A stretch of DNA of 64,000 nt from a virus, in IMG/VR virus record IMGVR_UViG_3300008117_004657, positions 1 to 64,000 of that record, one strand, 5' to 3'. A program made the translations under genes and the position numbers. The notes under the pieces are model-generated. The model did not search any database, was not told the origin of the DNA, and worked only from the letters and a program-made list of their open reading frames with translations. Below are positions 28,875 through 62,898 of the stretch, one piece after another (within the stretch, counting starts at the first letter, position 1; each line of letters opens with the position of its first letter).

Positions 28875-28885
28875 TTTGAAAAGTA

Positions 28886-29701
28886 TTATGACAAAGATTT
28901 TGCCTCTATACTTCGTTGAACAAATCTCATCAATTCATTGTAATATTGATCATCAGTCATTTCTCGACCAGTAATTTTAAAACTTTGTACTCCAACTTGT
29001 TTTAACTTTTTCATGGCATTAGGCATCAGATCCATACACTCGTATTTACTGTCTATATCTGGGTTAAATTTTGGCAACCAACATTCTTCTATTTCTCGAC
29101 TATAAGGTCTGCCTGCGGTATTTTCATCAGCGATAGCTTTAAAGTGTGCATCATAGTGTTTACATCCATAAACACAAGTATCATTTAACATAACTTCCCA
29201 TTTAGTTCTATCCAATTCGATAGTTCTAGGGTCAAATACATGCTCAAATCTAGGAACTATCCAATCATAATTTTTTTCGAGAACTTTAAAAAACTGAATA
29301 TCTTCATCCTGTAATGGAATATTCAGTTGTCCCATTCCAGTTATACTATAAATTAATTCATAATCTGGATAATTTGAACGAACATATTTTCTCAGATCAT
29401 CATTAACTATTATTAGTGCATTACCTTTTCGATGAAATTTTTCTAATAAATGATTACCAACTTCATCATTCAAATCTATCGTATGATTACTTAATGTTAA
29501 AGCTATACTTATACCTTTACTATAATAAAAATTCATTAGATTTTCATTATAGTAAACATCTCTGTTAATTCTACCACCATTCCATTTACATTTATTTACT
29601 CCATCATATACTAATATTTTTGTATTGTCTACAATTCTATTAGAAATAAATTTTATTATAGGAATGGTTTTACTGAAAGCACCAGCTATTAGGTATCTCA
29701 T
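28886..29701 (-). CDS. U32-family-like Fe-S protein
   Basis: Residues 234-262 read as the U32 signature: L-x-x-x-G-V-x-S-F-K-I-x-G-R followed by a tyrosine-containing helix. This is the segment written as GVxSxKIEGR in U32 proteins such as UbiU, YhbU and RlhA. Cysteines 176, 180, 207 and 222 follow a NDTC-x3-GC, EECW, YECM order that could bind a 4Fe-4S cluster as in UbiU/UbiV. The N-terminal half fits a TIM-barrel-like fold (ALTLSNHTI, then ALIIVNDD). U32 proteins are linked to oxygen-independent hydroxylation of RNA or quinones. The gene sits between radical-SAM genes 9 and 11 bp away. The family call is by motif only; the substrate is unknown. Confidence 0.55.
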   Translation of the reverse strand: MRYLIAGAFSKTIPIIKFISNRIVDNTKILVYDGVNKCKWNGGRINRDVYYNENLMNFYYSKGISIALTLSNHTIDLNDEVGNHLLEKFHRKGNALIIVNDDLRKYVRSNYPDYELIYSITGMGQLNIPLQDEDIQFFKVLEKNYDWIVPRFEHVFDPRTIELDRTKWEVMLNDTCVYGCKHYDAHFKAIADENTAGRPYSREIEECWLPKFNPDIDSKYECMDLMPNAMKKLKQVGVQSFKITGREMTDDQYYNELMRFVQRSIEAKSLS

Positions 29702-29709
29702 ATTCTATT

Positions 29710-30468
29710 CTACATTAAAAAACATTTAGGTTTTGGGCAAACGCCATCGGTTTTTATTCTATAACAACAGTTATATAAATCTAAGTTTGGCGCATAGAGA
29801 AAATATTTATCTTTATACAAACAAGGTTTCCCAAAAGTATTAAAGTTTGAATCTAACCACAATTCACTGCGTTGACGACCAAACCTATCGATATCCTCAA
29901 AATTAATTATCTTTTTATAAATCGAATTGTTTTTCAATGATTGATATTGTGAAAGTAAAGTATCACTATAACCATCTCCAAAGTCGGTAACTGGAGTCAA
30001 AAATAAATTGTCATGTGAAAAAGATTTTTTTATAGCAAAATAATAATCTATAGCTTCTTTTCCTGTGTACATAACATCTATGATTTTAATATTGACTTCA
30101 GTTTCTTTTAATCCGTCAACTATATCTTTTATTGATGTTTCTGTTGGATGAATACTAATATTAACTTTAAAAGGTTCTTTTATTTGTTCGATTATTTTTC
30201 GACTGTAATTACTAAAGTTTGTTTGTATAACAAAAGGTATACTAAATTCATTAAAAGTTTTTATTATAAATTCTATTTTAGGATGAACAAATGGTTCCCC
30301 ACCGAACACAAAAATCTCTACATTAGGATATTTTTCTCCTAAAGTTTTTATAAAACTTTTTATTTTTTCTTCATCCAATTCTGGTCTTATACTGGGGTCC
30401 AAATTCGTACAATATACGCATTTATAATTACACTTAAGTGTAATTTCCCATTCAACAATTTTATTCAT
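29710..30468 (-). CDS. Radical-SAM enzyme, short (252 residues)
   Basis: The cluster motif is C13, C17, C20 (CNYKCVYC) and the SAM-binding motif is FGGEPFVHP around residue 55. The C-terminus has cysteines in GKPCLY, YNCCYR and VCPKPKC contexts, suggesting a short auxiliary-cluster region. It overlaps the preceding radical-SAM gene by 8 bp and lies 8 bp ahead of the U32-type gene, so it is in the same co-translated run. An NxSxHPTETS segment is reminiscent of radical-SAM enzymes acting on nucleoside or sugar substrates, but no specific reaction can be named. Confidence 0.85.
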   Translation of the reverse strand: MNKIVEWEITLKCNYKCVYCTNLDPSIRPELDEEKIKSFIKTLGEKYPNVEIFVFGGEPFVHPKIEFIIKTFNEFSIPFVIQTNFSNYSRKIIEQIKEPFKVNISIHPTETSIKDIVDGLKETEVNIKIIDVMYTGKEAIDYYFAIKKSFSHDNLFLTPVTDFGDGYSDTLLSQYQSLKNNSIYKKIINFEDIDRFGRQRSELWLDSNFNTFGKPCLYKDKYFLYAPNLDLYNCCYRIKTDGVCPKPKCFLM

Positions 30469-31363
30469 TTTTTATTTTTAATTGTTTTAAAAGACCATCA
30501 CAATTACAAGCTTTATGTGGACAAATCATAGGAATAGTTTTCGTAATATTTTTAAAAAAATCTCTATTACTTAAAAGATTCACATTATCAGTTTTAGGCA
30601 TACAAAATTTTACTACGTTGCCTTTAACATCAATTTCATAATTATTATTGTAACAACTCCATCCCTTGAAGTTTGTCATCTTATCTCTAAAGATAATATA
30701 GTCATTAAAAAAATCGTCATCATATTTGAGTTCTTTTTCATAAGACTCTAAAAAAGAAAAATATTCCCAAAAATCTTTTCTATAATTAAACAATTTTGTA
30801 ATACTGTTGCCGTATAAAAAATGTGGATGCACTTTTAAATTAGGTATTTTTTCTAAAGTTTCAAACATGTTTTTTATTTTTGGCCAAAGTTTTTTATCAT
30901 GATGTAACATTACATTAACTTTACACTTATAACCTCTATTCAACATGTGATTTATATTATTTAAAAATCTATTTTCGTCAGTACAATCAGCTGGGTGATA
31001 ACTAAACAAAAATGCCAGTCTATCATAATCTGGGTGAGTTGTCAAATCTTTTTCAGCATTAGTAACAACATATACCCAATTAAATTTTTCCATTTTACTA
31101 ATTGAATCTAAAATATAATAGTAATGTGGACCTAGAGTTGGTTCACCACCTAATAATCCAAGATTAAAATTTAGACTGCTTCGATTTAGAGCGTCCAAAA
31201 CTGCATCTATTACTGTTTTGCTCGATAACTTACCCCATTCTTTACCATATTCATTTCTAGCGTAACAATAAGAACATTTAAGTTGACAGATAGTTAAACT
31301 GTCCCAATGAATATTAATGTGATCTGGATCTTGATCTTTATGATGTTGTATTTTATACTTCAT
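30461..31363 (-). CDS. Radical-SAM enzyme (300 residues)
   Basis: The cluster motif is C26, C30, C33 (CQLKCSYC), the SAM motif is GLLGGEPTLGP, and a SYHPAD motif lies in the middle of the barrel. The C-terminus has cysteines in GWSCYN, VKFCMP, MICPHKACNC contexts, the spacing C-x-C at the end resembling small twitch-type auxiliary domains. The radical-SAM protein at 37875-38723 has a similar architecture (KVICPKEIC ending), suggesting that they are paralogues. It overlaps the glycosyltransferase gene by 11 bp and the next radical-SAM gene by 8 bp. Confidence 0.85.
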   Translation of the reverse strand: MKYKIQHHKDQDPDHINIHWDSLTICQLKCSYCYARNEYGKEWGKLSSKTVIDAVLDALNRSSLNFNLGLLGGEPTLGPHYYYILDSISKMEKFNWVYVVTNAEKDLTTHPDYDRLAFLFSYHPADCTDENRFLNNINHMLNRGYKCKVNVMLHHDKKLWPKIKNMFETLEKIPNLKVHPHFLYGNSITKLFNYRKDFWEYFSFLESYEKELKYDDDFFNDYIIFRDKMTNFKGWSCYNNNYEIDVKGNVVKFCMPKTDNVNLLSNRDFFKNITKTIPMICPHKACNCDGLLKQLKIKNE

Positions 31364-32024
31364 ATTTTTTTAAAAAATCTAAAGACGAGGTTATGTTTAT
31401 ATCTTTTTTTGTGTCTGGAAAAGATATATTATCATTCCCATCTTTTGTCTGATAAAAAAACACTTTACCAGTAGTTCTAAATGATTTAGAGTTACCTGAA
31501 GCGTGATAAACTAATCTGATATCATTATGTATATTGTTGTCTTTACCAAATAAAAAATCACCTATAACTTCTTTATTAAATATAAATTGTCCTAATTGTA
31601 GATGTTCAAGATTCAATTTATTTAAAAAATCAATTTTGTTGTTAATATTTTCGTCTTTAAACATATTTACTATTTCTAATAAATTGTCAGGTTTGTAAGT
31701 TGGATAGTAATTTCCTGCTATTATATCAGAATCAAATTCTTGATTAAAAAAATCATTTCTCAAATAATCATCATCTTCCAAAAAATAGATATATTTACCT
31801 TTTGATTGTAAAAATAAAAATTCGTATATACTTGATAAGTTATCAAATTTTTTATAAAAATATTTGACATTAGGATTTAAAATTTCTTCAATATCACAAC
31901 TATCATTATTTACAATAATTTCTGTTTGGGGTGTTATTTGAGATAAAACCGATTTTATACATCTATCGAATAAAGTGGGTCTTTTGTGGGTTAATAATAA
32001 AATAGAAAGTTCAACATTTAACAT
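31353..32024 (-). CDS. Family 2 glycosyltransferase (GT-A fold)
   Basis: The N-terminus SILLLTHKRPTLFDRCIKS is the classic GT2 start. A YFLEDDDYL segment near residue 75 holds the D-x-D metal and sugar-nucleotide motif. The protein has 223 residues, shorter than most GT2 enzymes because the acceptor-binding C-terminal part is reduced. It lacks membrane segments. It would transfer a sugar from a nucleotide donor to an unknown acceptor. The gene lies between two radical-SAM genes, with overlaps of 7 and 11 bp, so glycosylation and radical chemistry may target the same molecule. Confidence 0.8.
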   Translation of the reverse strand: MLNVELSILLLTHKRPTLFDRCIKSVLSQITPQTEIIVNNDSCDIEEILNPNVKYFYKKFDNLSSIYEFLFLQSKGKYIYFLEDDDYLRNDFFNQEFDSDIIAGNYYPTYKPDNLLEIVNMFKDENINNKIDFLNKLNLEHLQLGQFIFNKEVIGDFLFGKDNNIHNDIRLVYHASGNSKSFRTTGKVFFYQTKDGNDNISFPDTKKDINITSSLDFLKKYEV

Positions 32025-33010
32025 ACAATTTTTATCTTCTCACCCAAGATAGGATTAAGATTGACCTTTCCTTTTAGTTCATTTTCTACACCATCACAAA
32101 CATAAAAATATTTACATTTTAAACATTCTTCAGTTTTAAAACAACTATAAATTCTCAAACGATCTGCTTCAGAAAAACACTGATCCACTTTTTGTTCATG
32201 TGTGTAAGAAATTTTAGTATTTAAAGTTTCATTATAAACTGCTTTATTCCAATCCTTCATATCATATATGTGATGATAATGATTTTTTATATACTTTTCT
32301 TTTGATGGCATGAAGCAGTAAGGAAAATATCTAGCGTTTACTTCAACAAAATCTTTTAATTGATCAATATAATCAGATACATGTGAACAAATAATTTCAT
32401 AATTTATAGGTTGAAAATCTTTATTGTCTCTCCAATAATTTAAAGCTATAAAATTTACCTGTGAAGGGCTTAAAGACTTTATAAATGAGGTATCTATTTT
32501 ATCAAAGTTTTCATGATATATTGTTGTGTTTAACCTAACTTCGATATTTAATTTGTGTGAGTTTTCGACAGCTTTAATTAAATTATTAAAAGCTCCTTTT
32601 TTACCTACAATTTTGTCATGAATATTTTCATCCGTACAATGCAAACTAAAAAGTATTTCTCTTAATCCTAAATCATAACTTTTTCTTATAAAATCTTCAT
32701 CACTAAATTTTCCTCCATGACTAAGGCAACTGATTCTATCGAATTTATTTCGACAGTAATTTAATATATTAAACCAGTTTGGTTCAACGCTACTTTCACC
32801 ACCACTTAGATCGATTTCTCTTATGCCATAATCAAGTAAATAATCTATTCTTTTGTATATTTTTTCAAGTTCATCTCTTTCAGTCAAACTATTTTTATAG
32901 TAACAAAATTCACATTTATAATTACAAAGTTTACCTGTGTCCAATTTAGCCCTACTATTAATAGGTCTATTATAATCAACAGTAACTTTATTAACACTTA
33001 ATTTGTTCAT
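32018..33010 (-). CDS. Radical-SAM enzyme with SPASM-like C-terminus (330 residues)
   Basis: I place the start at ATG 33008-33010 rather than the TTG one codon upstream. The cluster motif is C29, C33, C36 (CNYKCEFC) and the SAM motif is DLSGGESSVEP, with Ser-Ser in place of the usual Pro. The C-terminal part carries SCFKTEECLKCKYFYVCDG, a cysteine pattern (C-x6-C-x2-C-x5-C) typical of SPASM domains that bind auxiliary 4Fe-4S clusters. SPASM enzymes often modify peptides such as RiPP precursors. The gene overlaps the GT-B-like gene by about 20 bp and the GT2 gene by 7 bp. Confidence 0.88.
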   Translation of the reverse strand: MNKLSVNKVTVDYNRPINSRAKLDTGKLCNYKCEFCYYKNSLTERDELEKIYKRIDYLLDYGIREIDLSGGESSVEPNWFNILNYCRNKFDRISCLSHGGKFSDEDFIRKSYDLGLREILFSLHCTDENIHDKIVGKKGAFNNLIKAVENSHKLNIEVRLNTTIYHENFDKIDTSFIKSLSPSQVNFIALNYWRDNKDFQPINYEIICSHVSDYIDQLKDFVEVNARYFPYCFMPSKEKYIKNHYHHIYDMKDWNKAVYNETLNTKISYTHEQKVDQCFSEADRLRIYSCFKTEECLKCKYFYVCDGVENELKGKVNLNPILGEKIKIVC

Positions 33011-33869
33011 CAATGTACTTTATTAAAAGGTCATCTTTTGTTAGGGACGTGTTTTGAATACCATCTTTTTTCCTAACTTCCAGTGCCTTATCATAATAAT
33101 CTACATCATAAATAATTTCTTTATCATAATACATACACTCCAAAATAAATCTACTAGAACAATCTTTTTTACCTGGCAGTTTGGTATAAACATATGTAGA
33201 AAACTTGTTCCACATATCAGGCACAGGAACTTTATATGTATTAAAATTTTGGTATAATTCTGGTTTATTCGTAAAAATTATACTATCTTTAATTGAATAT
33301 TTATTGATGACTTCAGTTAAATCTTCTTGTGGTAAGAATCGACTAACATCAGTTAAATAAAACATGGAAGAGTTTTCAATTTTTCCATCTATAGTTTTGA
33401 ATTTAGAATATAAAATTTTCTTTTTATAATCTATAACATTTAGTCCTTCTGGTATATCATCATATATCTCAAAATCTTGAAATAGATGGCTTGAAAATTT
33501 TTTATTTGAATAATAACTGAAATCTTTCTCATGACATCTTAAAAGAAAAAAGTTGTCACAATAAATTTCAGAATTATTAAACTTGGAATATCCGTCAACT
33601 ATTAATAAATTTTTCGTTAATAATAGTTTTGGATAAGGATGATAGACTAAATTTTCAATGGTTAAATCATGGTATTTCGATTTTAAAGCTATATTGAATT
33701 CTTCAATAGTCGTACCATCAGACAATAATATACAAGGATTTAAATTTGTCCAATTTTTTATAGCCCAATAGTATTCAATCATTTCAAATAAATGGCCACA
33801 AATACCAAATTTAAAGTTATATGAAGTGGTTATTACCAAATCATAACTTCTCAAATTAATTAAAGACAC
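32991..33869 (-). CDS. Unassigned protein, possibly a GT-B-type glycosyltransferase
   Basis: This 292-residue protein starts with GTG at 33867-33869; no better start or ribosome-binding site is visible. The N-terminal part (ITTSYNFKFGICGHLFEMIEYYWA) could be the first Rossmann domain of a GT-B fold. The C-terminal part (IIFTNKPELY, then SRFILECMYYDKEIIYD) resembles the donor-binding end, where a glutamate followed by a 'gk-x-v' strand is usual. There is no diagnostic motif, so the assignment rests on fold-like patterns and on its position between a radical-SAM gene and an unknown gene in a sugar-modification setting. Confidence 0.4.
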   Translation of the reverse strand: MSLINLRSYDLVITTSYNFKFGICGHLFEMIEYYWAIKNWTNLNPCILLSDGTTIEEFNIALKSKYHDLTIENLVYHPYPKLLLTKNLLIVDGYSKFNNSEIYCDNFFLLRCHEKDFSYYSNKKFSSHLFQDFEIYDDIPEGLNVIDYKKKILYSKFKTIDGKIENSSMFYLTDVSRFLPQEDLTEVINKYSIKDSIIFTNKPELYQNFNTYKVPVPDMWNKFSTYVYTKLPGKKDCSSRFILECMYYDKEIIYDVDYYDKALEVRKKDGIQNTSLTKDDLLIKYIDEQIKC

Positions 33870-34981: not shown

Positions 34982-35386
34982 TTATCTCCTTAAGTAAGAC
35001 TCAATAATTTCATTAACACTTTTCTCATCATTTAAATCTGGTAAAACTTTTAATTTATCAATTATATTATAAAATTCGTCTTTTTTTTCTTGTAATTGTT
35101 TAATTGAATCCATAAGGTTGATATATTTTTCCAACTTATTAATAAGTTCAACATCGCCTGTTTCTATAATTTTGATATAAACTTCTTCTCTAAGTTCTTC
35201 GGTTATGATGTATCCCTTTGAAGCCAGTTCATTGTTAATAGTCATAAAACTGACGAAATCCAATAATTTAAACGTCAAAAGTTCATCACCAAAAATTCCT
35301 CTAGCTTTTGTTTTACATGCTAGAGCAGCTTTACCCGCATAAGTATTCGCGTCTATACCTTCAATTTCAACTCGTTTTTCTTCCAT
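34982..35386 (-). CDS. Unknown small protein following the cysteine-repeat gene (134 residues)
   Basis: I choose ATG 35384-35386 over a GTG 15 bp upstream, because that GTG is part of a GTGGAG ribosome-binding site placed 9 bp before the ATG. The protein is acidic and mostly helical, with a likely coiled coil in the last 60 residues (ELINKLEKYINLMDSIKQLQ). It has no cysteine-rich or catalytic motif; only one Cys (ALACKTK) is seen. Directly following the fibre-tip gene, it may be an assembly chaperone. A modification partner is an alternative. Neither is shown by the sequence. Confidence 0.55.
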   Translation of the reverse strand: MEEKRVEIEGIDANTYAGKAALACKTKARGIFGDELLTFKLLDFVSFMTINNELASKGYIITEELREEVYIKIIETGDVELINKLEKYINLMDSIKQLQEKKDEFYNIIDKLKVLPDLNDEKSVNEIIESYLRR

Positions 35387-35410
35387 AAAATTTATCTCCA
35401 CTATTAATAA

Positions 35411-36337
35411 TTATTTAATCTCAAAAGGAAGTTCAGAATAATTAACCATATAAAAACCATTTTTGGTCATATAAACAGCATTAGAATATTTTGTTTTTAG
35501 AAGTTCTTGGGCCATAACACCGACAAAAGTCTCATTACTCCAAATATAAGAAAAACTGTAAACATTAATTCCAAAAATATTCTTCAAATATTTAATATTC
35601 CTTTTCAATCGTCTGTCACTATAATTACAATTGCATGTGCAAGAATAATTGCAGTTACATGTACAATAATTACAGTTACATGTACAATAATTACAGTTAC
35701 ATAAACATACTGCGCCAGCATCTTTTACTTTTTTAATTAAAGCATTAATGTCTGTCGCACTTATTCTAGTTGATAGTTGTGCGTTATTAGTGGTAGATAT
35801 ACCGGCAAATCCAGTAACAAAACCTGCTACCGAAATTGCAGGACCTCGGTCTACTTGTGGATTAGTAGTATTTGGTCCACCCCAGAGTTCAACACCACCA
35901 AAAGCTACAAATTGAGTGCCGTTAGGAAAAATTCGTTGCGTTAATTGAGAACCCGAACTTACAACACTTTCTCCTCCGGATGACGATGTAGTTATGAGAC
36001 CAAATGTCCTAGCTCCCGTTCTCTCTATCGAGGCTTTTAAATTATTTATTTGGGACGATGTTATGGAAGTGCCGGAACTGACAGTTGATCCTGACGGTGC
36101 AGAAAGTCCTCGCCTAGTACATTCAGACGCATAAGCGGTTCTAATAGCATTTATTGATGCAGCCCCAATTAACGATCCTGCTGTAACATCAGTCAAAGAA
36201 TAAGTTGTAGCAACTGCAGCGCCATTATAAACGTTTGCTTTTACTATGTAGGTTCCACTAGCATCGTTGTCAGGGTTGTAACCCTTTGCATGACCAGAGG
36301 AAGCAGGAGGTCTTTTTTTGGAAGATGAATACGGCAT
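35411..36337 (-). CDS. Cysteine-repeat fibre-tip protein with S74 chaperone domain
   Basis: This 308-residue virion-type protein has three parts. Residues 1-205 are Ser/Thr/Gly-rich and contain two similar helical segments (SSQINNLKASIERTG and SATDINALIKKVKDAG). Residues 211-237 hold 12 cysteines in a CNCNYCT repeat: two full units, one CNCNYSCT and one CNCNYSD. From about residue 240 follows SDRRLKRNIKYL and a GVMAQELLKT segment, diagnostic of the Peptidase S74 intramolecular chaperone of endosialidase. S74 domains trimerise fibres and then cut themselves off at this Ser-Asp. The mature protein would therefore end in the cysteine repeat. It is the last gene of a coupled radical-SAM run, its start 1 bp after the 126-residue gene's stop. 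Confidence 0.8.
   Translation of the reverse strand: MPYSSSKKRPPASSGHAKGYNPDNDASGTYIVKANVYNGAAVATTYSLTDVTAGSLIGAASINAIRTAYASECTRRGLSAPSGSTVSSGTSITSSQINNLKASIERTGARTFGLITTSSSGGESVVSSGSQLTQRIFPNGTQFVAFGGVELWGGPNTTNPQVDRGPAISVAGFVTGFAGISTTNNAQLSTRISATDINALIKKVKDAGAVCLCNCNYCTCNCNYCTCNCNYSCTCNCNYSDRRLKRNIKYLKNIFGINVYSFSYIWSNETFVGVMAQELLKTKYSNAVYMTKNGFYMVNYSELPFEIK
35626..35707 (-). repeat. Tandem 21-bp repeat encoding CNCNYCT
   Basis: The repeat unit codes TGT-AAC-TGT-AAT-TAT-TGT-ACA. Two copies are identical in DNA, the third carries an inserted serine codon, and the last ends before the S74 start. The spacing between cysteines is regular, C-x-C-x-x-C-x-C. Near-identity of the DNA implies that copy number can change by slippage. 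Confidence 0.85.
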
Positions 36338-36338
36338 A

Positions 36339-36719
36339 TTAAATCTCTTTTGATAAGAAGTTTAAATTATCTTTAACTTTATTTTCTTCTAAAAATTTTT
36401 CATAATCATCAACATCAACAGTAGATGATAAAAAGTCCATAGTTTCTTTATCGGGTTCTTTATCTGACAAAGAATCTTCTGAAGATTCTTTAATTATATA
36501 CATCACCATTTCTTCTAAAGAAAAACCTAAAATGTTAGAAACAAGATTTATTTGATCGGAAATATCTAAAGTTCCTTTAAAGTCCTCTTTAGAAATAGTT
36601 TCCAGAACATTTATTGATAGACCTAATCCATCCAATAATACTCTACCCGCAACATTATCTTCTTCAGATATCTCACCCATAAGTCTAATTATTTCTTCTA
36701 TTTTTTCAGTGGTTTTCAT
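36339..36719 (-). CDS. Unknown acidic protein (126 residues), coupled to radical-SAM gene
   Basis: The start ATG overlaps the stop of the radical-SAM gene upstream (ATGA), and its own stop lies 1 bp before the ATG of the cysteine-repeat protein. It is strongly acidic, helical, has no Cys, and includes a serine/glutamate-rich linker (KESSEDSLSDKEPD) between two helical parts. I recognise no family. Its position between the last radical-SAM enzyme and its candidate substrate suggests a chaperone or a recognition partner for the fibre-tip protein. This is inferred from gene order only. Confidence 0.5.
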   Translation of the reverse strand: MKTTEKIEEIIRLMGEISEEDNVAGRVLLDGLGLSINVLETISKEDFKGTLDISDQINLVSNILGFSLEEMVMYIIKESSEDSLSDKEPDKETMDFLSSTVDVDDYEKFLEENKVKDNLNFLSKEI

Positions 36720-37579
36720 ACCAATTCCTTTTCTTTAAAATCTCGAAATTTTGGGGAACTCTCAATATTGAAATGTGTAGTAACATTTCCTTCGTCTGTA
36801 AAATACGTTTTAATTTCTTTTCTAATACTACATCCGTCACAAATATCACAAAATAGAGAACATACAGGCGACTGAATCTCATTATTTATCCAACTTAACC
36901 TGAGATTTTCTTTCATAGAATCTAAAAGTTTTAAGTCTTTCTCACTCAAAGTATCCCAGGCGACAGAGGTTATAAGTCTCTCCGGCCTAAAAGTTTTGAT
37001 TAGTTTAGTTATATCTTCGGAAGCTCGCCTTATATTCAATTTATGAATGGTATATCTTATTCGAAACCTGAAATTATTTTCCAATAACTTCTTAAATATC
37101 TTTACCATAAATGGTGTTGATTCCATACCATTGTGAAAAACTCTGTCTTTATTACCAACTCCATCAAAACTCACATCTATAGATAATAACTTCTTCTTAT
37201 AAAAAAAATTATTTTTAGTTACGTCTATGAAATCTTGGCTTAAATATTTAATACCATTTGTTGTCATATTAAAATGAACATTCTTCTTTTTACTATAGGC
37301 ATAGTCCATAGCAAAACAAACATTTTCCCATTCTAATGTTGGCTCTCCACCAAACAATACTATAAGAGTTTGCTGACTCGGATCCTCACGTTCTAAAATT
37401 TTATCAATACTTTTTACAATATCTTCTTTACTTAAAATTTGCGGCGGTCTTCCTGGTAAATCTTCATAGCAATACGTGCAAGCTAAGTTGCATTTATTGG
37501 TAAAATATAATACATTTACACCAGATCCAGAAACTATTGGTTTATTAGGATCTTGTATGTAAAATTGTTCTACATTCAT
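36716..37579 (-). CDS. Radical-SAM enzyme, candidate fibre-tip modifier (287 residues)
   Basis: The cluster motif C30, C34, C37 (CNLACTYC) is followed by VLFGGEPTLEW and an NMTTNG segment in the barrel. Near the C-terminus VCSLFCDICDGC packs four cysteines in 12 residues, suggesting an auxiliary Fe-S cluster of SPASM/twitch type. About 30 N-terminal residues precede the barrel. Start ATG overlaps the stop of the 99-residue gene (ATGA), and its own stop overlaps the start of the 126-residue gene by 4 bp. It is the radical-SAM gene closest upstream of the cysteine-repeat protein. Confidence 0.87.
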   Translation of the reverse strand: MNVEQFYIQDPNKPIVSGSGVNVLYFTNKCNLACTYCYEDLPGRPPQILSKEDIVKSIDKILEREDPSQQTLIVLFGGEPTLEWENVCFAMDYAYSKKKNVHFNMTTNGIKYLSQDFIDVTKNNFFYKKKLLSIDVSFDGVGNKDRVFHNGMESTPFMVKIFKKLLENNFRFRIRYTIHKLNIRRASEDITKLIKTFRPERLITSVAWDTLSEKDLKLLDSMKENLRLSWINNEIQSPVCSLFCDICDGCSIRKEIKTYFTDEGNVTTHFNIESSPKFRDFKEKELV

Positions 37580-37875
37580 TGTATTATCATTTTATGAGAA
37601 TTTTTATATCTATTTTCTTTTGGACGTTTTTTAGCTTCTTCAATTATGTGTCGCATGTTGTCCAAAAATTTGATATAATCTAATTTGTAATCAAATAAAT
37701 GTCCGGCTTCATTATATCCAACATATTTACTATCAACTTTAGCTTTACCTTTTCTAGCTTCTTCAATCTGCACTGATAACTCATCAACAGGAATTACTTT
37801 GTTTGATGCATGTTCAACAGGTTGCATCTCAACCTTTATTGGTATAGATAATAAACTTTTAAAATTTTTTTTCAT
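37576..37875 (-). CDS. Unknown small basic protein between radical-SAM genes (99 residues)
   Basis: Its start overlaps the stop of the preceding radical-SAM gene by one base (TAATG), and its stop overlaps the next radical-SAM start (ATGA), so all three are coupled. The sequence is soluble, Lys-rich, with a helical C-terminal half (YIKFLDNMRHIIEEAKKR) and an N-terminal beta-like part. It contains no Cys, so it is not a cysteine-type RiPP precursor. It may be a recognition or adaptor partner of the flanking enzymes, or unrelated to them. No family recognised. Confidence 0.5.
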   Translation of the reverse strand: MKKNFKSLLSIPIKVEMQPVEHASNKVIPVDELSVQIEEARKGKAKVDSKYVGYNEAGHLFDYKLDYIKFLDNMRHIIEEAKKRPKENRYKNSHKMIIQ

Positions 37876-38723
37876 TAAATTTCCTTAGGATACATCATAA
37901 GTCCACCTTCACAAATTTCTTTCGGACAAATAACTTTTTTTGTAATATCTTTTAAAGATAACGGCATAATTTCATTAGTGCAAACATTTTTAACCAAATT
38001 ATCCAATTCTATTTGAAAAGATTCTGGCACACATTTATAATCTCTAAAAGAATTTTTTTTCTCATATAATAATTTTAAATCTGTTGTTCTTTCTTCCGAA
38101 CCATCATCATATAAAACATTTATATCTATCATATCTTCAGCATTAGAAGCTTCTGTAAAAAAATCTTGATCTAAGTTATTTGTGTAATATGGAGTATCAA
38201 CTAAAAAATTTAATTTAAATTTAATATTATTAGATTTACAGTTATCAATAATATTTAAAATATAGTTTTTATACTCTGGCATCATACTTATATGAACTTC
38301 ACAATTTAGATTTTTACACTTTTTTAAAAAATCCTCTTTGTGATATTCTGGATGAAAAGATGCATAATACTTAACTTTTGAAAAACTTTTTATACTTTTA
38401 TAAAAAGTTTCCGATCTAGTCAAGTTGGTAAAAAAATAAATTTTTACCAAATTTTTAATTTCATTTAATCCTTCCAGTATTTCTTCAATATTTGGATGTA
38501 ATGTTGGTTCACCACCAGTTAAACAAATCTCAAAAGGTTTAGAAATAGTTTTTAATCTACTTATTATTAACTTGTAACTTTGTGCAATCTGAGTCGTATC
38601 ATTGTAATCATAACTTAAATTTTCCTTTACATTACAGTATGAACACTTCAAATTACACCAATTCAATATATGCCAGTTAATTCTAAGAATTTTATCTTGA
38701 CTGGTGCAAGAAATAATTTTCAT
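37875..38723 (-). CDS. Radical-SAM enzyme (282 residues)
   Basis: The cluster motif lies at C23, C27, C30 (CNLKCSYC). The SAM motif is CLTGGEPTLHP, and a YASFHPEYH segment sits at the middle of the barrel, matching the FSYHPAD of the paralogue at 30461-31363. The C-terminus has cysteines in YKCVPE, KNVCTN and VICPKEICEGG contexts, a probable auxiliary-cluster module. It starts 1 bp after the stop of the SPASM enzyme upstream and overlaps the 99-residue gene by one base. Confidence 0.87.
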   Translation of the reverse strand: MKIISCTSQDKILRINWHILNWCNLKCSYCNVKENLSYDYNDTTQIAQSYKLIISRLKTISKPFEICLTGGEPTLHPNIEEILEGLNEIKNLVKIYFFTNLTRSETFYKSIKSFSKVKYYASFHPEYHKEDFLKKCKNLNCEVHISMMPEYKNYILNIIDNCKSNNIKFKLNFLVDTPYYTNNLDQDFFTEASNAEDMIDINVLYDDGSEERTTDLKLLYEKKNSFRDYKCVPESFQIELDNLVKNVCTNEIMPLSLKDITKKVICPKEICEGGLMMYPKEI

Positions 38724-38724
38724 A

Positions 38725-39849
38725 TTAATTCCTACACTCTACGCCTTCATTTTCAACACCAACATTTTCAATATAATGTAATACTAAATCTTGAAAAACT
38801 GGAACATCCTTACACTCATCAACAACTCTTAAACCCTGTTCATAATATATGTGAAATAATTCACAAATACTATCCAATGGTTTATTGTCATTCATAATTT
38901 GAGAATAAGTGCATCCAGTATTACATACTTGTTTTAAATCGCAAGGTTCACATTTATCAAAACTTTTAGGATTAAATATATCTTGATAATATTTAAAATT
39001 ATATTGTTCGTCCATCTTCATAATTTTTTTAGATGCAAATCTGGCGCAAGGATAAAATTCACCAGAACTCATCAAAACTCCACCATTGGTTCCTGCAAAA
39101 CATCCAAATGATCTTTTTCCTTTTACTAATCCATATAGTGTGTCCAAAATAGCTAGTCTGAGAAAGCCAACTGAACAAGCTTTACCTGATTTTAGTTTTT
39201 CTATCCAAAAATCCGCCAATCTTTCACATTCATATCTAAACTGTTTGATATCTTCTACAGTCCAAACATCATCTCGAACTATACTAAAATCGGGATGATC
39301 TATACCCCAATCTAGTAAGAATTGGAAATTCTCCGTCATATCTTTGGTATTACCTGGCCATATCATAACTTTACAACCGTTTGTTAAATCTTTTATGATT
39401 TCTTTCTTGTACTCATACATTGAAAGAATACCATCAAATAAATCTCCAGTTTCTGGATTAGTATTTTCTAAAAGTGGTAATAAAGGTCTAGTTTCATTTG
39501 AACTCATACCATCAAAAGACCAAGAAACACCGACACCATTTTCTTTTAAATAATGAGCTTTATTTTCATCAATCATCGTAAGATTTGTGATGATATTAAT
39601 ACCTTTACATTTCTTATCCGATTTCAAATAAGGAACGGCGTGAGTTATAAGATCCCAATTTAATAGTGGTTCACCACCAAAAAAACTTACATGATAATCC
39701 CTATCTCCCGATCTTTGCATCAAGTTGGGCAAATCTTTCATACCTTGATCGAAAACCTCTTTCGTCATCCAAGTTGGCCTATTTGCTACATAACAATAAG
39801 GACAACCTAGATTACATTTTTCAGTAACACTTACCTCTAATGTAAACAT
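38725..39849 (-). CDS. Radical-SAM/SPASM enzyme (374 residues)
   Basis: The cluster motif is C12, C16, C19 (CNLGCPYC), followed by VSFFGGEPLLNW and a WSFDG segment as in anaerobic sulfatase-maturase-like (anSME) and peptide-modifying SPASM enzymes. The SPASM region shows a CFAG, YPCARF, then CEPCDLKQVCNTGC and later ICELF series, enough for two auxiliary 4Fe-4S clusters. This family modifies Ser, Cys or other residues in proteins and peptides. It follows the first SPASM gene with a 10-bp gap and starts the coupled run that ends at the cysteine-repeat protein. Substrate identity is inferred only from context. Confidence 0.9.
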   Translation of the reverse strand: MFTLEVSVTEKCNLGCPYCYVANRPTWMTKEVFDQGMKDLPNLMQRSGDRDYHVSFFGGEPLLNWDLITHAVPYLKSDKKCKGINIITNLTMIDENKAHYLKENGVGVSWSFDGMSSNETRPLLPLLENTNPETGDLFDGILSMYEYKKEIIKDLTNGCKVMIWPGNTKDMTENFQFLLDWGIDHPDFSIVRDDVWTVEDIKQFRYECERLADFWIEKLKSGKACSVGFLRLAILDTLYGLVKGKRSFGCFAGTNGGVLMSSGEFYPCARFASKKIMKMDEQYNFKYYQDIFNPKSFDKCEPCDLKQVCNTGCTYSQIMNDNKPLDSICELFHIYYEQGLRVVDECKDVPVFQDLVLHYIENVGVENEGVECRN

Positions 39850-39859
39850 TCTTTTATCC

Positions 39860-40966
39860 TTAAACTGTGCATTGTTCAGCCTCGATTTTAATCGTAGGCT
39901 TTTTATAACTCTTTAGTGCTGTTCTTAGAGCATGATGTACTATCTCATTCGTTTTGAATACCTTACATACCTGCCAATTAGCTGTATGATCACTCCATTT
40001 TTCTAAATAAGTTTCTTTTTCAGATTTCTCATAAGTCGCAGCATTACACTTCATACAAAACTGACTATCGCAACTCATACAGTCTAGTGGTTGATTTTTC
40101 AATGCGTCTTTATACATCTGAGATTTTTCTTCAATCAACTGATCTAAATCTGGAACTTTAAAAATATTACCGAGTTTATGTGAATGAGATTCTTTATACA
40201 TGCATCCGTGACAAGGACTTAAATCCCCATTCAAGTCCACACTCACATAATTTATACCTGCAGCACATAGAGCTCTAGACTGTTGAAACCATCCAAATTT
40301 TTCAGGAGGTAATTTGTTATCATAAATGTGTTTAGCAATTTTTTTCAATCCATCCTTCAAAACTTCTAATCTAGGCATGAATTCTTCTTCATTCAACTGA
40401 CTGTATAAGTCTGGTGTTGGAAAATAATTATTATCCATTTCTATTACATCTAGAAATGCTTCATAAATTAAATGGAAATTATCGGATGTCAAAACAGATT
40501 TCAATGAAACATTTAGCCCAGCTTGTTTAGCTGCAATATAGTTTGCTTTAACTAAGGCTGATGATGGAGTACCAGACTTAGTTACTCTTGCGATATCATT
40601 TACTGGTTTTCCATCATATGAAACTTGTAACTTTAGTCTACCTGGAATTTCATTATGAATTCTAACCAAATCTTTTAAATATCTTTTTAAATATGTTCCA
40701 TTTGTATAGAAGAAAAAAGAAAACCCAGGATCGTGTTTAAACTTCTCAATAACACCTTTACAAAAATCCCAATTAACAAACGGTTCGCCACCCCAAAAAT
40801 AAACATCCTTTTTAGGATCAGAAATTTTAGCCATAAATTCTTCAACATTATCTAATGTCAAAGAAGTATTTTCTTCAAACTCAGTAGATAGACCACACTC
40901 AAAACCTTCGGAACAATATGTGCAAGCTAAATTGCAAATACTTGTTACGTTTATATCTACTACCAT
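39860..40966 (-). CDS. Radical-SAM/SPASM enzyme (368 residues), first gene of the island's right part
   Basis: The cluster motif is C11, C15, C18 (CNLACTYC), then YFWGGEPFVNW and a VSYDG segment. The SPASM domain has RALCAAG, LSPCHGCMY and LDCMSCDSQFCMKC cysteines, the standard pattern for two auxiliary clusters, and a WQVCKV cysteine at the end. Length and motif order match anSME-like and RiPP-maturing enzymes. The start ATG 40964-40966 has a strong AGGAG site, and a sigma70-like promoter candidate lies just upstream at 41001-41029. It is probably the first gene of a transcription unit running to the fibre-tip protein and perhaps beyond. Confidence 0.9.
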   Translation of the reverse strand: MVVDINVTSICNLACTYCSEGFECGLSTEFEENTSLTLDNVEEFMAKISDPKKDVYFWGGEPFVNWDFCKGVIEKFKHDPGFSFFFYTNGTYLKRYLKDLVRIHNEIPGRLKLQVSYDGKPVNDIARVTKSGTPSSALVKANYIAAKQAGLNVSLKSVLTSDNFHLIYEAFLDVIEMDNNYFPTPDLYSQLNEEEFMPRLEVLKDGLKKIAKHIYDNKLPPEKFGWFQQSRALCAAGINYVSVDLNGDLSPCHGCMYKESHSHKLGNIFKVPDLDQLIEEKSQMYKDALKNQPLDCMSCDSQFCMKCNAATYEKSEKETYLEKWSDHTANWQVCKVFKTNEIVHHALRTALKSYKKPTIKIEAEQCTV

Positions 40967-41000: not shown

Positions 41001-41029
41001 AGTATATAGTAGTTGATAAACTCAATCAA
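41001..41029 (-). promoter_or_regulatory. Candidate sigma70-type promoter upstream of the radical-SAM run
   Basis: On the minus strand TTGATT (-35, 4 of 6 matches) at 41024-41029 is followed by a 17-bp spacer and TATACT (-10, 5 of 6) at 41001-41006. It lies partly in the end of the dehydrogenase gene, in one of the few intergenic gaps of the region (55 bp). The predicted start would leave about 30 bp of leader including the AGGAG site. A perfect 6-bp inverted repeat (GTTGAT, seven bases, ATCAAC) at 41012-41030 overlaps it and could be an operator. AT-rich DNA makes chance matches likely. Confidence 0.35.
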
Positions 41030-41759
41030 CATTTCTGTAGTATTCGTTCAGTTCTAAAACTTTTTTAAGTAATTCTACATCATAATTTTTCACCAAACAC
41101 TCGGTATCTTTTGGTAAGCAAGGACCTCCAAATCCTCTTTTTCCGTCAGGTCCAGGAACTTTAAAATGATTGGATCCCATCCAAGGATGTTTAGAAAGTA
41201 TTTCGATAGCTTCCTCATAGTTTACCTCCATCTTTTTAGCTACATCATACATTGAATTCATAAAAATAACTTTTGTTGCATAAAAAGAATTCATTGAGTA
41301 TTTTATAAAAGAAGCAGTATTGATATCCGTTATGAATGTATTACTCATATCTACAGTAGAATACTTTCTATAAATTTCTAATGCTTGTTCAGATTTATTA
41401 CCCGATAAAATCGTTAGAGGAGGATTTACAAAATCTTCCTTTGAAGTGGACCTTGATAAAAATTCTGGATTATATACTACGTCATATTGTTTTAAATATT
41501 GTGGTAACACAGTTGATTTGACTATGACAACTCCTTTATAATTCATTCGTCGTATTTCATCAAGTACAGAAATCAACAAAGAATAATTAGTGTTATCTGT
41601 GGGAGTAGGAACACAAACGAAGATAGCCTCAGGATTTAATAAACAAAGGCCTTTCACCGTTACGTGATTATATTTCGGATCACAAACAAAAACTTTAGTT
41701 TTGGAAAAGCCGTATTCAACGGCTTGTCCAACCATTCCATAACCAATAATTCCAATCAT
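41022..41759 (-). CDS. UDP-glucose/GDP-mannose dehydrogenase-like enzyme, shortened
   Basis: The Rossmann motif GYGMVGQ at residues 6-12 and the CVPTPTD segment are typical for UDP-glucose 6-dehydrogenases. The catalytic cysteine is C214 in FGGPCLPKD, the usual GGxCxPKD motif, and lysine in FIKYSMNSF is the conserved K-x-x-x-N. The protein has 245 residues, ending 31 residues after the catalytic Cys, whereas full enzymes have about 400. The C-terminal UDP-binding domain is therefore missing. Oxidation of a nucleotide sugar to a uronate is the family reaction; activity without that domain would need a partner or a different substrate. It lies between the first long fibre and the radical-SAM genes. 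Confidence 0.8.
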   Translation of the reverse strand: MIGIIGYGMVGQAVEYGFSKTKVFVCDPKYNHVTVKGLCLLNPEAIFVCVPTPTDNTNYSLLISVLDEIRRMNYKGVVIVKSTVLPQYLKQYDVVYNPEFLSRSTSKEDFVNPPLTILSGNKSEQALEIYRKYSTVDMSNTFITDINTASFIKYSMNSFYATKVIFMNSMYDVAKKMEVNYEEAIEILSKHPWMGSNHFKVPGPDGKRGFGGPCLPKDTECLVKNYDVELLKKVLELNEYYRNVD

Positions 41760-41762
41760 AAT

Positions 41763-44700
41763 TTACATGATAGCTACTTCTATCTTTCCTTCTTCTTCAG
41801 TGTTTTTATCTTCTAAACAAATTAATCTTAATGGTAATTTGTTACCATCAGATACTTTAGCTACTCCTGGTACATCAGACATTTCAAGTAAATCACCTTT
41901 TTTACATGTGCCTAAAATTCTAACAGGCAATCTACCTTTGAGTCCAACAACTATACCACCTTCTAATCCATCATTCATTAAGAAAGCAGGTTTTTCCGAA
42001 ACAACTCCTATTATAACATGTAATTTATCTTTTGTCGCGGCTGTAACTTCTTTATTGCCGCCAATCATCATAATCGTTCCATAATCATAAGATTGGTCTG
42101 GTAAATAACATTCGGCTAAGTCCGCAGAATAGTATGCTGATGTTGCGATGCCTCGGAAGAAATCAGCTACAATATCCTTTTCACAGAATATACCACCTTC
42201 AACATATAGAGAAGCACCAGCGGCAGGACTAGTAGAATTATCTTGACCAGTTGTAGCTTGAGTGCTATTTCTAATTCTAACCCTACCATAAAGATCGGAA
42301 GCACCATAATTAGTTAAATTAGCAGAAGTTGCTTGGCCAGCGACGCCAGTAACAATCGTTCCTCCAGAAGTAACATTAGTTGTACTACCAGCAGTTGTAG
42401 CGCTACTAGCAGATGTAGCACTACCAGCACTAGTTGCATATCCAGCATCACCGGTAATATTCATGGGATAAGTTCTAGCGCCACCTGTGTCAGTTCTTGA
42501 AACTCTATTTGTAGGTAATAAACCGGCAGCATCAACTTGAATATATCCAGTTAAATTGGGAGCAGAAATTTCAGACCAACTAAATCCAGTACCCGTCCAA
42601 TTTAAAAAACGATTTAAATTTGCTGGAGGAGCAACAATGAAAGCTGTAGTATCTTGTTCTGATTGATATACAATTCTACTTGCAGCACCGCCAGTAATAT
42701 TATTCGCTCTATCAGAAACAAAACCTAAAGTTGTAAAATCTGCTGGATCTGAAGTTGCATGTGTATATTGCCATCTGTCAATAGTTTCATTATAACGGAA
42801 TATAGCATTTGGAGAAACACCCCTATCAACTTCAATTGTAGCACTTAAAGACGGACTCTGATTTTGGTTTTGATTACCATTAAATACAAAAGTTCCACCT
42901 TGTAGGAGTGCTGTGCCTCCATTAAACTTAATGTTGCCACTTTCCAATTTACCAGTAACATTTATATTACCATTTATGGTTTGAATATCACTACCACCCG
43001 TTCTATAAACAGCATTATTTGCATTACTGAACGCAGCATTGGCATGCCTAAATGCCACATCTAAATGTACGTTTGCTGTATTTGCAAATAAAAATGCCGC
43101 ATTAGCGTGAATAAATGCTGGAACAACATTAGCTAAAGCTTGAGATGCAGATTCTTGTGCAACAGCAGCAGCAGCTGCAGCAGTATTGGCAGCTCCAAAA
43201 GCTCCATTCGCATAAGAACTAGCACTATTTGCACTTCCAAATGCTGAGTTAGCATATCCACCAGAAATTACACCACCACTCAATGCAGCAGCATTAGCCG
43301 CAGCAAAAGCAGAATTAGCATACACGCCTGCACTATTTGCACTTCCAAATGCTGAGTTAGCATATCCACCAGAAATTACACCACCCTGCAAGGCAGCAAG
43401 ATTCGCTGCAGCATAAGCGCCATTAGCATAATTTGATGCACTCGTTATATTAATTGTAAACAGAGCCGAGTTAGCATTAGCAGTATTAGACACTACGTTT
43501 GCCCAATTAAATGCAGCATTAGCATGAGTGTAACCCGAGTTGGCATATCTACCAGATGTTTGTGCGACTGAGTGCGCGGTGTTTACCGCTAAAGGCGTAG
43601 CTATATTAGATGTACTTAAATTTGAAACTTCAGAATCTAAGAAACTTGCATCCAAAATTCCATAAAGTTCACTATAGGTATTACCTTTTGAGATTTTCCA
43701 TTGGTCATCAGTTTCAACCCATCTAATAATCGCATCATCACCAACAGGCCTTTCATTTCTAAAAACTGCATCAGCGTTTGTTGGTGTTCTCTTATTTAAA
43801 ATTATCTCACTTGTCTCATATTCAATGTCACCTAAAGCTGTCCAAGTTCCCTCAACAGTTAAATTACTTGAAATGTAAGCTGTATTGAGTGTAGTTTTTC
43901 CATCAACGATTAAAGATTCATATTGGCTGCCCGGAGCATAAATCCTTAATTGCGATCCACTTTGCATCCATAGATTAGAAGAAACATTTACCCAAGCAGC
44001 ATTAATTGTGGAAACTTCAACATTATTTGTAATAATATTATTAGCGGTAATTCTATGAGTTGAAGTTAAATTATATGATGTTAATATGTTAATTGAAGAT
44101 GTATTGATTGAAGCTACATTTATACTTGAACTATTTGAAACTAGATTTACTACATTACCATTTAATATGGTAGCGGTATTGATCGAAGATACATTGATTG
44201 AAGCTAAATTTGATACTAGAGTTACTACATTACCAACTAATGTGGTTGACGCATTTACTGTAGCAACATTAATTGATGATGAATTCGACACTAGAGTTAC
44301 TACATTACCATTTAATATGGTAGCGGTATTGATCGAAGATACATTCGAACTAAAATTAACAATATTACCAGAAATATTGGCGACCAAATACCTTGTGGAA
44401 ACGGAATTAGAGGTATGCGAATTCGAAGAAAGATAGTAAGAATTGCCTGTTACATTTTCTAAAATACCTATTCTAGCAAAAGCGAGATCATCTAAAACAT
44501 CTATTCTAGCAAACGAAGCATATAAATTTGCAGTGCTTACGTTAGTAGAAAAAGTATCTGTGGAGTATATTGTATTAGATTTTATGGATCCATTATTAGC
44601 ATAAGCTACATTTCCTGTACCACTTAATCTTAGAGTGCCGGTAGATATTGTTAAATTGTTCGCTACAGTTACACTACCATTTGCAATATAATTATTCGAA

Positions 44701-45074
44701 TATACATTACTTACTACTTGTAAATCGACACCAATATATGAATTATTCGAAACAGAAAGAGCTGATCCAGGACCTCTTACCGAAACTGTGCCGCCAGCAA
44801 TAATATTACCAGTTGCGGAACTTTGTACTCCTAAGAAAAGAGTATTTCCTAAAGTTAAACTACTTTGAAATAAAACGTTGTTTGCAACTTGTAGAGGGGT
44901 ACCATCAGCTGTAATATTTAAAATAGAAGTATTCGAAAGTATTAATGTTCCTTGAGTTTTATCGTAGTTATAAAACCCAAGGTCATTCAAATCTGATGCA
45001 GATTTGTTTGTTTGAATTCTCCATTCGTCAATGGTATTCGTTCTAGCAATGATTGGTATTAATGAGGTAGGCAT
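41763..45074 (-). CDS. Long tail fibre with C-terminal ADLAE-type domain (1103 residues)
   Basis: The N-terminus ITRT/IARTNTIDEWRIQTNKSASDLN is a baseplate- or fibre-attachment-like start common in marine T4-like phages. The middle is a beta-rich TSNSSSINVATI repeat region, a collar domain with an NERPVGDDAIIRW motif, then ANSAFG repeats of coiled-coil type. A third part has SGNIKF and a domain with TIEVDRGVSPNAIFRYNE. The C-terminal about 110 residues (ADLAECYLPD, then GVVSEKPAFLMN and GLKGRLPVRILG) form a domain I recall from the ends of cyanophage fibres. It precedes the dehydrogenase gene by 3 bp and follows the small coiled-coil gene. It is a structural component of the tail. Confidence 0.85.
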   Translation of the reverse strand: MPTSLIPIIARTNTIDEWRIQTNKSASDLNDLGFYNYDKTQGTLILSNTSILNITADGTPLQVANNVLFQSSLTLGNTLFLGVQSSATGNIIAGGTVSVRGPGSALSVSNNSYIGVDLQVVSNVYSNNYIANGSVTVANNLTISTGTLRLSGTGNVAYANNGSIKSNTIYSTDTFSTNVSTANLYASFARIDVLDDLAFARIGILENVTGNSYYLSSNSHTSNSVSTRYLVANISGNIVNFSSNVSSINTATILNGNVVTLVSNSSSINVATVNASTTLVGNVVTLVSNLASINVSSINTATILNGNVVNLVSNSSSINVASINTSSINILTSYNLTSTHRITANNIITNNVEVSTINAAWVNVSSNLWMQSGSQLRIYAPGSQYESLIVDGKTTLNTAYISSNLTVEGTWTALGDIEYETSEIILNKRTPTNADAVFRNERPVGDDAIIRWVETDDQWKISKGNTYSELYGILDASFLDSEVSNLSTSNIATPLAVNTAHSVAQTSGRYANSGYTHANAAFNWANVVSNTANANSALFTINITSASNYANGAYAAANLAALQGGVISGGYANSAFGSANSAGVYANSAFAAANAAALSGGVISGGYANSAFGSANSASSYANGAFGAANTAAAAAAVAQESASQALANVVPAFIHANAAFLFANTANVHLDVAFRHANAAFSNANNAVYRTGGSDIQTINGNINVTGKLESGNIKFNGGTALLQGGTFVFNGNQNQNQSPSLSATIEVDRGVSPNAIFRYNETIDRWQYTHATSDPADFTTLGFVSDRANNITGGAASRIVYQSEQDTTAFIVAPPANLNRFLNWTGTGFSWSEISAPNLTGYIQVDAAGLLPTNRVSRTDTGGARTYPMNITGDAGYATSAGSATSASSATTAGSTTNVTSGGTIVTGVAGQATSANLTNYGASDLYGRVRIRNSTQATTGQDNSTSPAAGASLYVEGGIFCEKDIVADFFRGIATSAYYSADLAECYLPDQSYDYGTIMMIGGNKEVTAATKDKLHVIIGVVSEKPAFLMNDGLEGGIVVGLKGRLPVRILGTCKKGDLLEMSDVPGVAKVSDGNKLPLRLICLEDKNTEEEGKIEVAIM

Positions 45075-52879: not shown

Positions 52880-52887
52880 AGACTTAT

Positions 52888-55680: not shown

Positions 55681-55683
55681 TTA

Positions 55684-58083: not shown

Positions 58084-58090
58084 CTATTAT

Positions 58091-59712: not shown

Positions 59713-59714
59713 CA

Positions 59715-61523: not shown

Positions 61524-61544
61524 ATATTTTACCTTTTAATTTTT

Positions 61545-62897: not shown

Positions 62898-62898
62898 A

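Follow-up and report, generated by a model that had tools for sequence, protein, structure and literature searches.

Three radical S-adenosylmethionine (radical-SAM) enzymes, called A, B, and C here, are inherited together with a phage protein that carries tandem cysteine-rich heptads of the form CxCxCNY. The set was found in a stretch of 64,000 nucleotides of viral DNA (the window), which makes up positions 1 to 64,000 of the 72,977-base IMG/VR record IMGVR_UViG_3300008117_004657. The balance of evidence tips slightly toward the array being the substrate of these enzymes; where an S74 domain is present, it would expose the array as the C-terminus of a tail-associated protein. Phages probably cross-link a protein of their own in this way, perhaps a part of the tail that recognizes the host.

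Observed directly are the conservation of the array, its linkage to the enzymes, the clades that the enzymes form, the constraint on the array's codons, and the S74 serine and lysine at the junction between array and S74 domain. An original prediction, made from the window's letters, had proposed the repeat as the substrate, or the cluster acceptor, of the enzymes, in a maturation of a virion protein like that of ribosomally synthesized and post-translationally modified peptides (RiPPs). As far as genomic linkage and conservation go, this idea is supported. The term RiPP-like may fit the combination of a variable upstream domain, a conserved core, and SPASM enzymes that are nearest to thioether maturases.

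Linkage of the repeat and the enzymes

Seven genes, all on the minus strand, occupy positions 35411-40966 (Table 1). In order of transcription they encode A, B, a fourth radical-SAM protein (D), a 99-amino-acid (aa) protein, C, a 126-aa protein, and the 308-aa array protein. The internal junctions are a gap of 10 bp, a gap of 1 bp, an overlap of 1 bp, two overlaps of 4 bp, and a gap of 1 bp. The spacing of 10 to minus 4 bp given in the original prediction is correct, but overlaps and 1-bp gaps account for five of six junctions rather than six of seven. The next gene downstream (34982-35401) follows 9 bp after the array gene. The predicted content of the run, four radical-SAM genes, two small proteins, and a cysteine-repeat S74 protein, was confirmed: A, B, C, and D all exceed the Pfam cut-off for Radical_SAM (PF04055, 29.5 bits), and the array protein passes that for Peptidase_S74 (PF13884, 29.6 bits against 22). 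The 99-aa and 126-aa proteins have no Pfam or NCBIfam match up to an E-value of 0.1. The former is retained in close relatives, and distant relatives have other small proteins at that spot.

A DNA pattern of two tandem heptads, blind to the enzymes, was searched against IMG/VR. It returned 30 contigs, all with in-frame repeat open reading frames (ORFs), and all 30 carry radical-SAM genes, from 3 to 16 apiece (three contigs reached by way of enzyme A were part of the same survey). A single-heptad pattern matched 80 stretches, including 50 loci beyond the first 30 contigs. Among these 50, 34 lack an in-frame repeat protein and 16 have one, on 15 new contigs, 14 of which carry radical-SAM genes. 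In total, 44 of 45 IMG/VR contigs with a repeat protein carry radical-SAM genes. Several of the 45 are near-copies, so relatedness was gauged by clustering the B orthologs, which form 10 clusters at 50% identity.

Radical-SAM genes are found in none of the 34 chance-hit contigs, a weak control alone because these are mostly short. As a second control, contigs of 25 kb or more that show an S74-type motif were taken, 27 in all. In 26 of them an in-frame S74 domain starts with at most 3 cysteines in the 60 preceding residues, although 2 of the 26 begin at the motif with little before it. Three of the 27 carry radical-SAM genes (1, 1, and 2 genes). Contig size is a confounder, as these three are the largest and the only ones above 150 kb. 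Below 100 kb, radical-SAM genes occur in 29 of 30 repeat contigs and in 0 of 24 S74 contigs.

Other collections give the same picture. A scan of a genome collection for the repeat found one locus, a 3-kb contig of a metagenome-assembled genome (MAG), with the order C (partial), A, an uncharacterized gene, and a repeat gene, after which comes the remaining part of an S74 domain. All 15 INPHARED records with a repeat protein of the CPT_0180 type, named after a protein of Campylobacter phage CP220, also match enzyme A. The repeat had been expected to be common in phages without radical-SAM genes if the proposal were wrong; instead, enzymes accompany it in 44 of 45 contigs and 15 of 15 records. 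A tblastn search of INPHARED with the whole array protein yielded one S74 match, a Microcystis phage S74 protein without an array; this near-blank result is attributed to masking of the repeat by BLAST, and DNA patterns were therefore used. Neither the CxCxCNY motif nor a link between repeat and enzymes was found among the literature matches listed (titles, starts of abstracts, and passages, with subscription journals mostly outside the search).

The association can also be followed from the enzymes. Profiles of B and A were used to collect the best 76 and 80 loci, respectively, with orthologs defined by at least 300 bits and an array by an ORF of at least 100 aa with at least 9 cysteines in 30 residues. 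Among the matches listed, an array ORF was found in the fetched DNA of 43 of 48 B orthologs, CP220 being counted through a different cysteine-rich ORF only, its repeat gene lying elsewhere. The five others (L and G numbers are working labels) are L301 and L308, which reach contig ends; phage CPt10 (L329), with its repeat gene elsewhere; L318; and L067 on contig G033. In G033 a 284-bp out-of-frame deletion removes the array (L273:8428-8643). The contig is otherwise identical here to G018, and the deletion is either a real loss or an assembly collapse.

For A, 17 of 21 loci pass the array threshold, three have a sparser array directly behind A, and the last is G033. Because array-linked sequences went into the profiles, the reciprocal tests lack independence where those sequences are concerned. 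The three A loci with a sparser array are L370, L372, and L387 (for instance, CICNSDCACNLVCDCNGNCGCNYSDERLK in L372), and in two of them an S74 domain comes next. Arrays of the CNxDCxCN type directly behind an A-type enzyme were seen at L331:12430-12897, L372:11130-11840, and L387:11113-11832, running straight into an S74 domain in L372 and L387. Such arrays read as an intermediate form of the repeat. No other obvious partner of the enzymes emerged; a different partner would have spoken against the original proposal.

BLAST and profile searches of fetched DNA identified A, B, and C around the arrays. Across 33 mapped regions, some of them from near-identical contigs, the distance between the array gene and a radical-SAM gene is at most 1.4 kb in 31 and 0-30 bp in 9. 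The exceptions are CP220 (2.2 kb) and G036, which has none. All three enzymes are present in 27 of 35 mapped array-bearing records, including a weak A in G041 and a broken or cut A in G010 and G022. Their association with the repeat persists at identities as low as 25-40%. Among distant phages the genes are rearranged to B, a small protein, C, A, and array, with the set retained. A, B, and C make up what is conserved, and variation is seen in D and the remaining radical-SAM genes nearby.

Among the closest known systems are those of Campylobacter phages of group II: CP220, which is cultured, CPt10, CP21, and IBB_35. The heptad CTCDCNY occurs in CPT_0180 and its orthologs, and CP220 retains one A, one B, and one C. 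Unlike in the window, the genes are dispersed, with CPT_0180 2.2 kb from A and with B (16.3-17.5 kb) and C (83.8-84.8 kb) far off, and the array is internal, without an S74 domain. In the excerpts of the CP220 genome paper, a 21-bp coding repeat and 11 radical-SAM proteins are separate features and are not connected with each other (Timms 2010, PMC2853527). The second cysteine-rich ORF of CP220, of NCKNCINCSNCKNC type, is at L328:17842-18213 (about 24.2 kb), several kb from B. In HE815464.1 (74991-76592, CP21_105) and OP654737.1 (20183-21742) the array protein bears the annotation N-acetylneuraminate pyruvate lyase, while the CP220 ortholog matches no NCBIfam model.

The array protein and the linked enzymes

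The array proteins are 125-534 aa long, and 39 of them contain 292 units, with 4-28 per protein. The search pattern imposed cysteine at unit positions 1, 3, and 5. The other positions are also conserved: position 6 is Asn in 269 units, position 7 is Tyr in 270, position 4 is Asn or Asp in 259, and position 2 is Thr in 230. Across 12 close relatives, mean identity is 96% in the array but 32% in the domain before it, compared with 79%, 81%, and 68% for A, B, and C. All pairs of 13 related arrays show 968 synonymous versus 93 nonsynonymous codon differences, with the latter confined to positions 2, 4, and 6. Corrected for opportunity, the ratio of nonsynonymous to synonymous change is 0.016, and the array is therefore not a product of chance. 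It is under strong purifying selection, whereas the preceding domain is divergent. Apart from the start, alignment of 19 relatives leaves just three invariant residues ahead of the array: E72, R75, and R76.

In the window protein, the S74 serine directly follows the last tyrosine of the array, and the motif SDRRLK carries the serine and lysine of the cleavage site. Protein pb1 of phage T5 is cleaved before Ser1264, with Lys1269 five residues on (PMC4690869, in excerpt). The spacing in SDxRLK is the same, so cleavage here would leave CNCNY as the C-terminus. The S74 domain is whole in eight array proteins (those of the window, L251, L252, L257, L259, L264, and L271, and one of L258). It is split in five loci examined (L073, L262, L265, L266, L281), where the array gene stops after SDxRLKxxIxY and the remainder is encoded by a second ORF that starts at an ATG of its own. 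In the remaining array proteins the domain is cut to its first residues or absent. Eight proteins without it stop 0-4 residues past the last unit (L247, L248, L254, one of L260, L268, L272, L275, L284), and thus end as the predicted cleavage product would. Compared with S74 fibres and tailspikes such as the K1F endosialidase and T5 pb1, the proteins share the Ser-Lys spacing but have a cysteine array, not a fibre tip, before the cleavage site, and in five relatives the domain is divided over two genes.

The CxxxCxxC cysteines of radical-SAM enzymes are invariant in alignments of A, B, and C. A tree of 89 rows places the three in separate groups (support 100/99, 100/99, and 91/50). Two of the radical-SAM genes had been predicted to have full SPASM domains, and SPASM features are seen in A and B. 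A passes the NCBIfam SPASM model (TIGR04085, 31.5 against 27 bits) and just misses that of Pfam (21.1 against 21.5), while B has seven SPASM-type cysteines, judged by what we take to be the consensus spacing, that are invariant across 24 orthologs. C has only a C-terminal four-cysteine cluster and falls outside SPASM. D has no SPASM match in Pfam or NCBIfam and is nearest to viperin-type models, below cut-off.

The ranthipeptide maturase PapB (NF047865) is the top-scoring NCBIfam model for A, B, and C as well as for the A enzymes of CP220 and the MAG contig, always far below cut-off (B 130.8, C 89.2, and A 77.4 bits against 340). Scores for the SCIFF maturase TIGR03974 are likewise below cut-off (B 87.1, C 61, and A 49.7 bits against 425). 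In a profile search of the PDB, 5wgg is matched by A (1.9e-25) and B (2e-42, profile positions 6-335). A structural model of B, with a mean predicted local distance difference test score (pLDDT) of 89.9, is closest to 5why and 5wgg, whose titles refer to thioether bond formation, followed by anaerobic sulfatase maturases. We take 5wgg to be the SCIFF maturase CteB. A review characterizes ranthipeptides by cysteine thioethers to non-alpha carbons, with Asn and Asp among the acceptors (PMC8326336, in excerpt).

The PapB and SCIFF systems resemble the set described here in their enzymes and in a cysteine-rich substrate, which here is a proposed one. They differ from it not only in the low scores, but also in that three enzymes, a long array protein, phage genomes, and either an S74 domain or no protease domain are found here. 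A second parallel is provided by systems with Cys-Xaa-Xaa-Xaa repeats (TIGR04115/TIGR04117), which pair a radical-SAM/SPASM enzyme with a tandem-cysteine-repeat protein; TIGR04115 also turns up as one of the lower-scoring models for A, B, and C. However, the enzymes are below its cut-off, the repeat is CxCxCNY rather than CXXX, and the window array protein and CPT_0180 have no NCBIfam match up to an E-value of 0.1, TIGR04117 included. Radical-SAM maturation of cysteine-repeat targets is already known as a kind; its putative setting in a phage is unexpected.

Proposed maturation and alternatives

The array protein would be made together with the tail genes. A, B, and C may recognize its N-terminal domain, in which the ExxRR motif is a candidate docking site. 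The enzymes would then install radical cross-links in the array, most likely cysteine thioethers of the ranthipeptide or sactipeptide type, before or during assembly of the tail-associated protein. That three enzymes match three cysteines per unit is suggestive. Autocleavage by the S74 Ser-Lys pair right after the last tyrosine would expose the array as the mature C-terminal end. Such a stapled, all-cysteine C-terminus would give the host-recognition apparatus a rigid part that resists proteases.

Several observations weigh against this pathway. None of the enzymes exceeds the cut-off of any RiPP-maturase family in NCBIfam, and no PqqD-type recognition domain was found with Pfam in A-D or the two small proteins. 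At 125-534 aa, the array proteins exceed the usual length of a precursor. The repeat contig G036 (43.8 kb, fetched whole) lacks a radical-SAM gene, and L318 (533-8605 of an 8.6-kb contig) has A and B followed by other tail-like genes, judged by eye, with no array seen. Some sets are incomplete in the fetched DNA: C only in G046, A and B in G019 and G044, and B and C in G047. The MAG contig has A and C, while G005 and G034, where the array is at a contig end, have none of the three, as does G036 (of these eight records, G005, G034, G036, and G046 were fetched whole, besides the MAG contig). Five types without S74 do not end at the array (L255/L269, L277/L280, L279, L283, and CP220). A fold search with the model of the window array protein (mean pLDDT 61.9) gave no match. 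Finally, CPT_0180 is missing from a figure legend that names 11 bands of the CP220 virion (PMC2853527).

The last points also favor an alternative in which A, B, and C modify the array but the product is not part of the virion. It would then be a RiPP-like toxin, signal, or superinfection-exclusion factor, acting inside or outside the infected cell. The absence of CPT_0180 from the named bands, the array proteins without S74, and the lack of a fibre fold in the model agree with this. So does the presence on two contigs of tandem array genes with differing N-terminal domains beside one enzyme set: four at L256:11197-13761 and three at L258:8850-10907. However, phage fibres and tailspikes have S74 domains, in cis or split, as their chaperones; the neighbors in the window and G036 are tail, baseplate, and fibre-type genes; and no transport or immunity gene was recognized among the window genes scanned. 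A non-virion product is unlikely on this evidence.

Still less probable is an array that stays unmodified. Its cysteines would bind metal or iron-sulfur clusters, form disulfides, or supply clusters, and the radical-SAM genes would share a host-recognition island for other reasons. CxCxC patterns bind metals in other proteins, and an A-type iron-sulfur-carrier-like gene, recognized by eye, lies between B and C in one cluster (L252:17033-17362). A variable host-recognition island of pelagimyophages also holds radical-SAM cassettes (PMC7029224, in excerpt). Against this, A, B, and C go with the array across ten B clusters and, though unlinked there, also in CP220, whereas other radical-SAM genes of the island do not. 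Simple metal ligation also leaves the conserved Asn6 and Tyr7 unexplained.

A role of the enzymes in host metabolism, surface sugars, DNA modification, or the activation of enzymes, with the array protein incidental, is very improbable: excerpts of earlier papers on Campylobacter phage genomes suggest a metabolic advantage (PMC2853527) and activases or methylation (PMC3322345), and the window has glycosyltransferase, UDP-glucose dehydrogenase, and halogenase genes, but A and B are closest in sequence and fold to peptide maturases, and the association with the array stands against the controls.

If the array is indeed the substrate of A, B, and C, viruses build their own proteins with radical-SAM peptide-maturation chemistry known from bacterial natural products. 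A partner would be at hand for radical-SAM genes of Campylobacter phages that have lacked an explanation since 2010, when they were left as possible metabolic genes. The pairs could also serve as modular enzyme-substrate sets for the engineering of stapled peptides, and would bear on how phages recognize hosts.

Other cysteine arrays and neighboring genes

Cysteine arrays are not limited to CxCxCNY. All A- and B-profile loci, minus seven re-listed loci and L428, include 112 without a CTC[ND]CNY ORF. Among the matches listed, 53 of these 112 have a cysteine-array ORF, compared with 0 of 114 control loci, which are shorter; per ORF the counts are 65 of 1833 versus 0 of 962. When loci with shared DNA are merged, 43 of 92 clusters have an array, or 34 of 79 after removal of clusters with a B ortholog. 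The array types include CxxC, CTCTC, PCNCDF, and CNxxCxCN. In two array proteins, of 847 and 1025 aa, carbohydrate-binding or spike-fibre models match with scores below cut-off. In L369:11770-12444, L414:7855-8850, and L432:2238-3467, a Hint/intein-type stretch, below the Pfam cut-off, lies behind the array; a putative Hint-like autoprocessing domain may take the place of S74 there.

These findings suggest a broader class of array-enzyme pairs, in which the partners are putative. Tentatively, and at somewhat less than even odds, phages may have a general route, so far unrecognized, by which cysteine arrays in their own structural proteins are stapled by radical chemistry. CxCxCNY with A, B, and C would be one branch, and others would combine distant enzymes with other arrays in proteins of up to fibre size, some with Hint-like domains. 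On that reading, cross-links of the RiPP type would be present in viral adhesins. Seven fragments of gut phages in INPHARED, with enzymes of 24-31% identity, have no array, so distant homologs alone do not imply one.

Arrays of other types, in proteins of up to 2018 aa, were seen near distant radical-SAM genes in L338, L341, L349-L352, L354, L356, L359, L378, L380, L392, L398, L413, L418, and L431. Beside the 28-unit array cluster of G041 (L279:16277-16958) are genes that, by eye, resemble those of an acyl carrier protein and a dehydratase.

Table 1. Features of the window.
Feature	Position	Strand	Basis
Radical-SAM/SPASM enzyme A, 368 aa	39860-40966	minus	Pfam and NCBIfam
Radical-SAM/SPASM enzyme B, 374 aa	38725-39849	minus	Pfam, NCBIfam, alignment, model, PDB profile
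Radical-SAM protein D, 282 aa, variable accessory	37875-38723	minus	Pfam and NCBIfam, no SPASM match
Small protein, 99 aa, conserved VDSKYVGY..GHLFDYK.DY	37576-37875	minus	Alignment of relatives
Radical-SAM enzyme C, 287 aa, four cysteines in a short cluster at the C-terminus	36716-37579	minus	Pfam, alignment, tree
Small protein, 126 aa	36339-36719	minus	Retained between C and array gene in close relatives
Array protein of 308 aa, with ExxRR in a variable N-terminal domain, an array of four units, and an S74 domain	35411-36337	minus	
Array CLCNCNY CTCNCNY CTCNCNY S CTCNCNY, proposed enzyme substrate	35621-35707	minus	Ends computed from residue numbers
S74 intramolecular chaperone/autoprotease domain, begins SDRRLK	35411-35620	minus	PF13884, 29.6 bits
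Further radical-SAM genes of the island (among others within 27939-33013)	27939-28874, 29710-30468, 30461-31363, 32018-33013	minus	
Fibre-like protein, 1103 aa, upstream	41763-45074	minus	"Fibre-like" read from its repeats
Tryptophan-halogenase gene, same island	25114-26406		
Sulfotransferase-like gene, same island	19605-20249		
UDP-glucose-dehydrogenase gene, same island	41022-41759		
Glycosyltransferase gene, same island	31353-32024		

The last three of the further radical-SAM genes in Table 1 are of types that recur near the array in most close relatives but seldom in distant ones (the 32018 type in L266). Matches of the 1103-aa protein are limited to families of unknown function. Baseplate and tail genes lie at 51542-63552, and positions 877-11847 form an ORF of 3656 aa.

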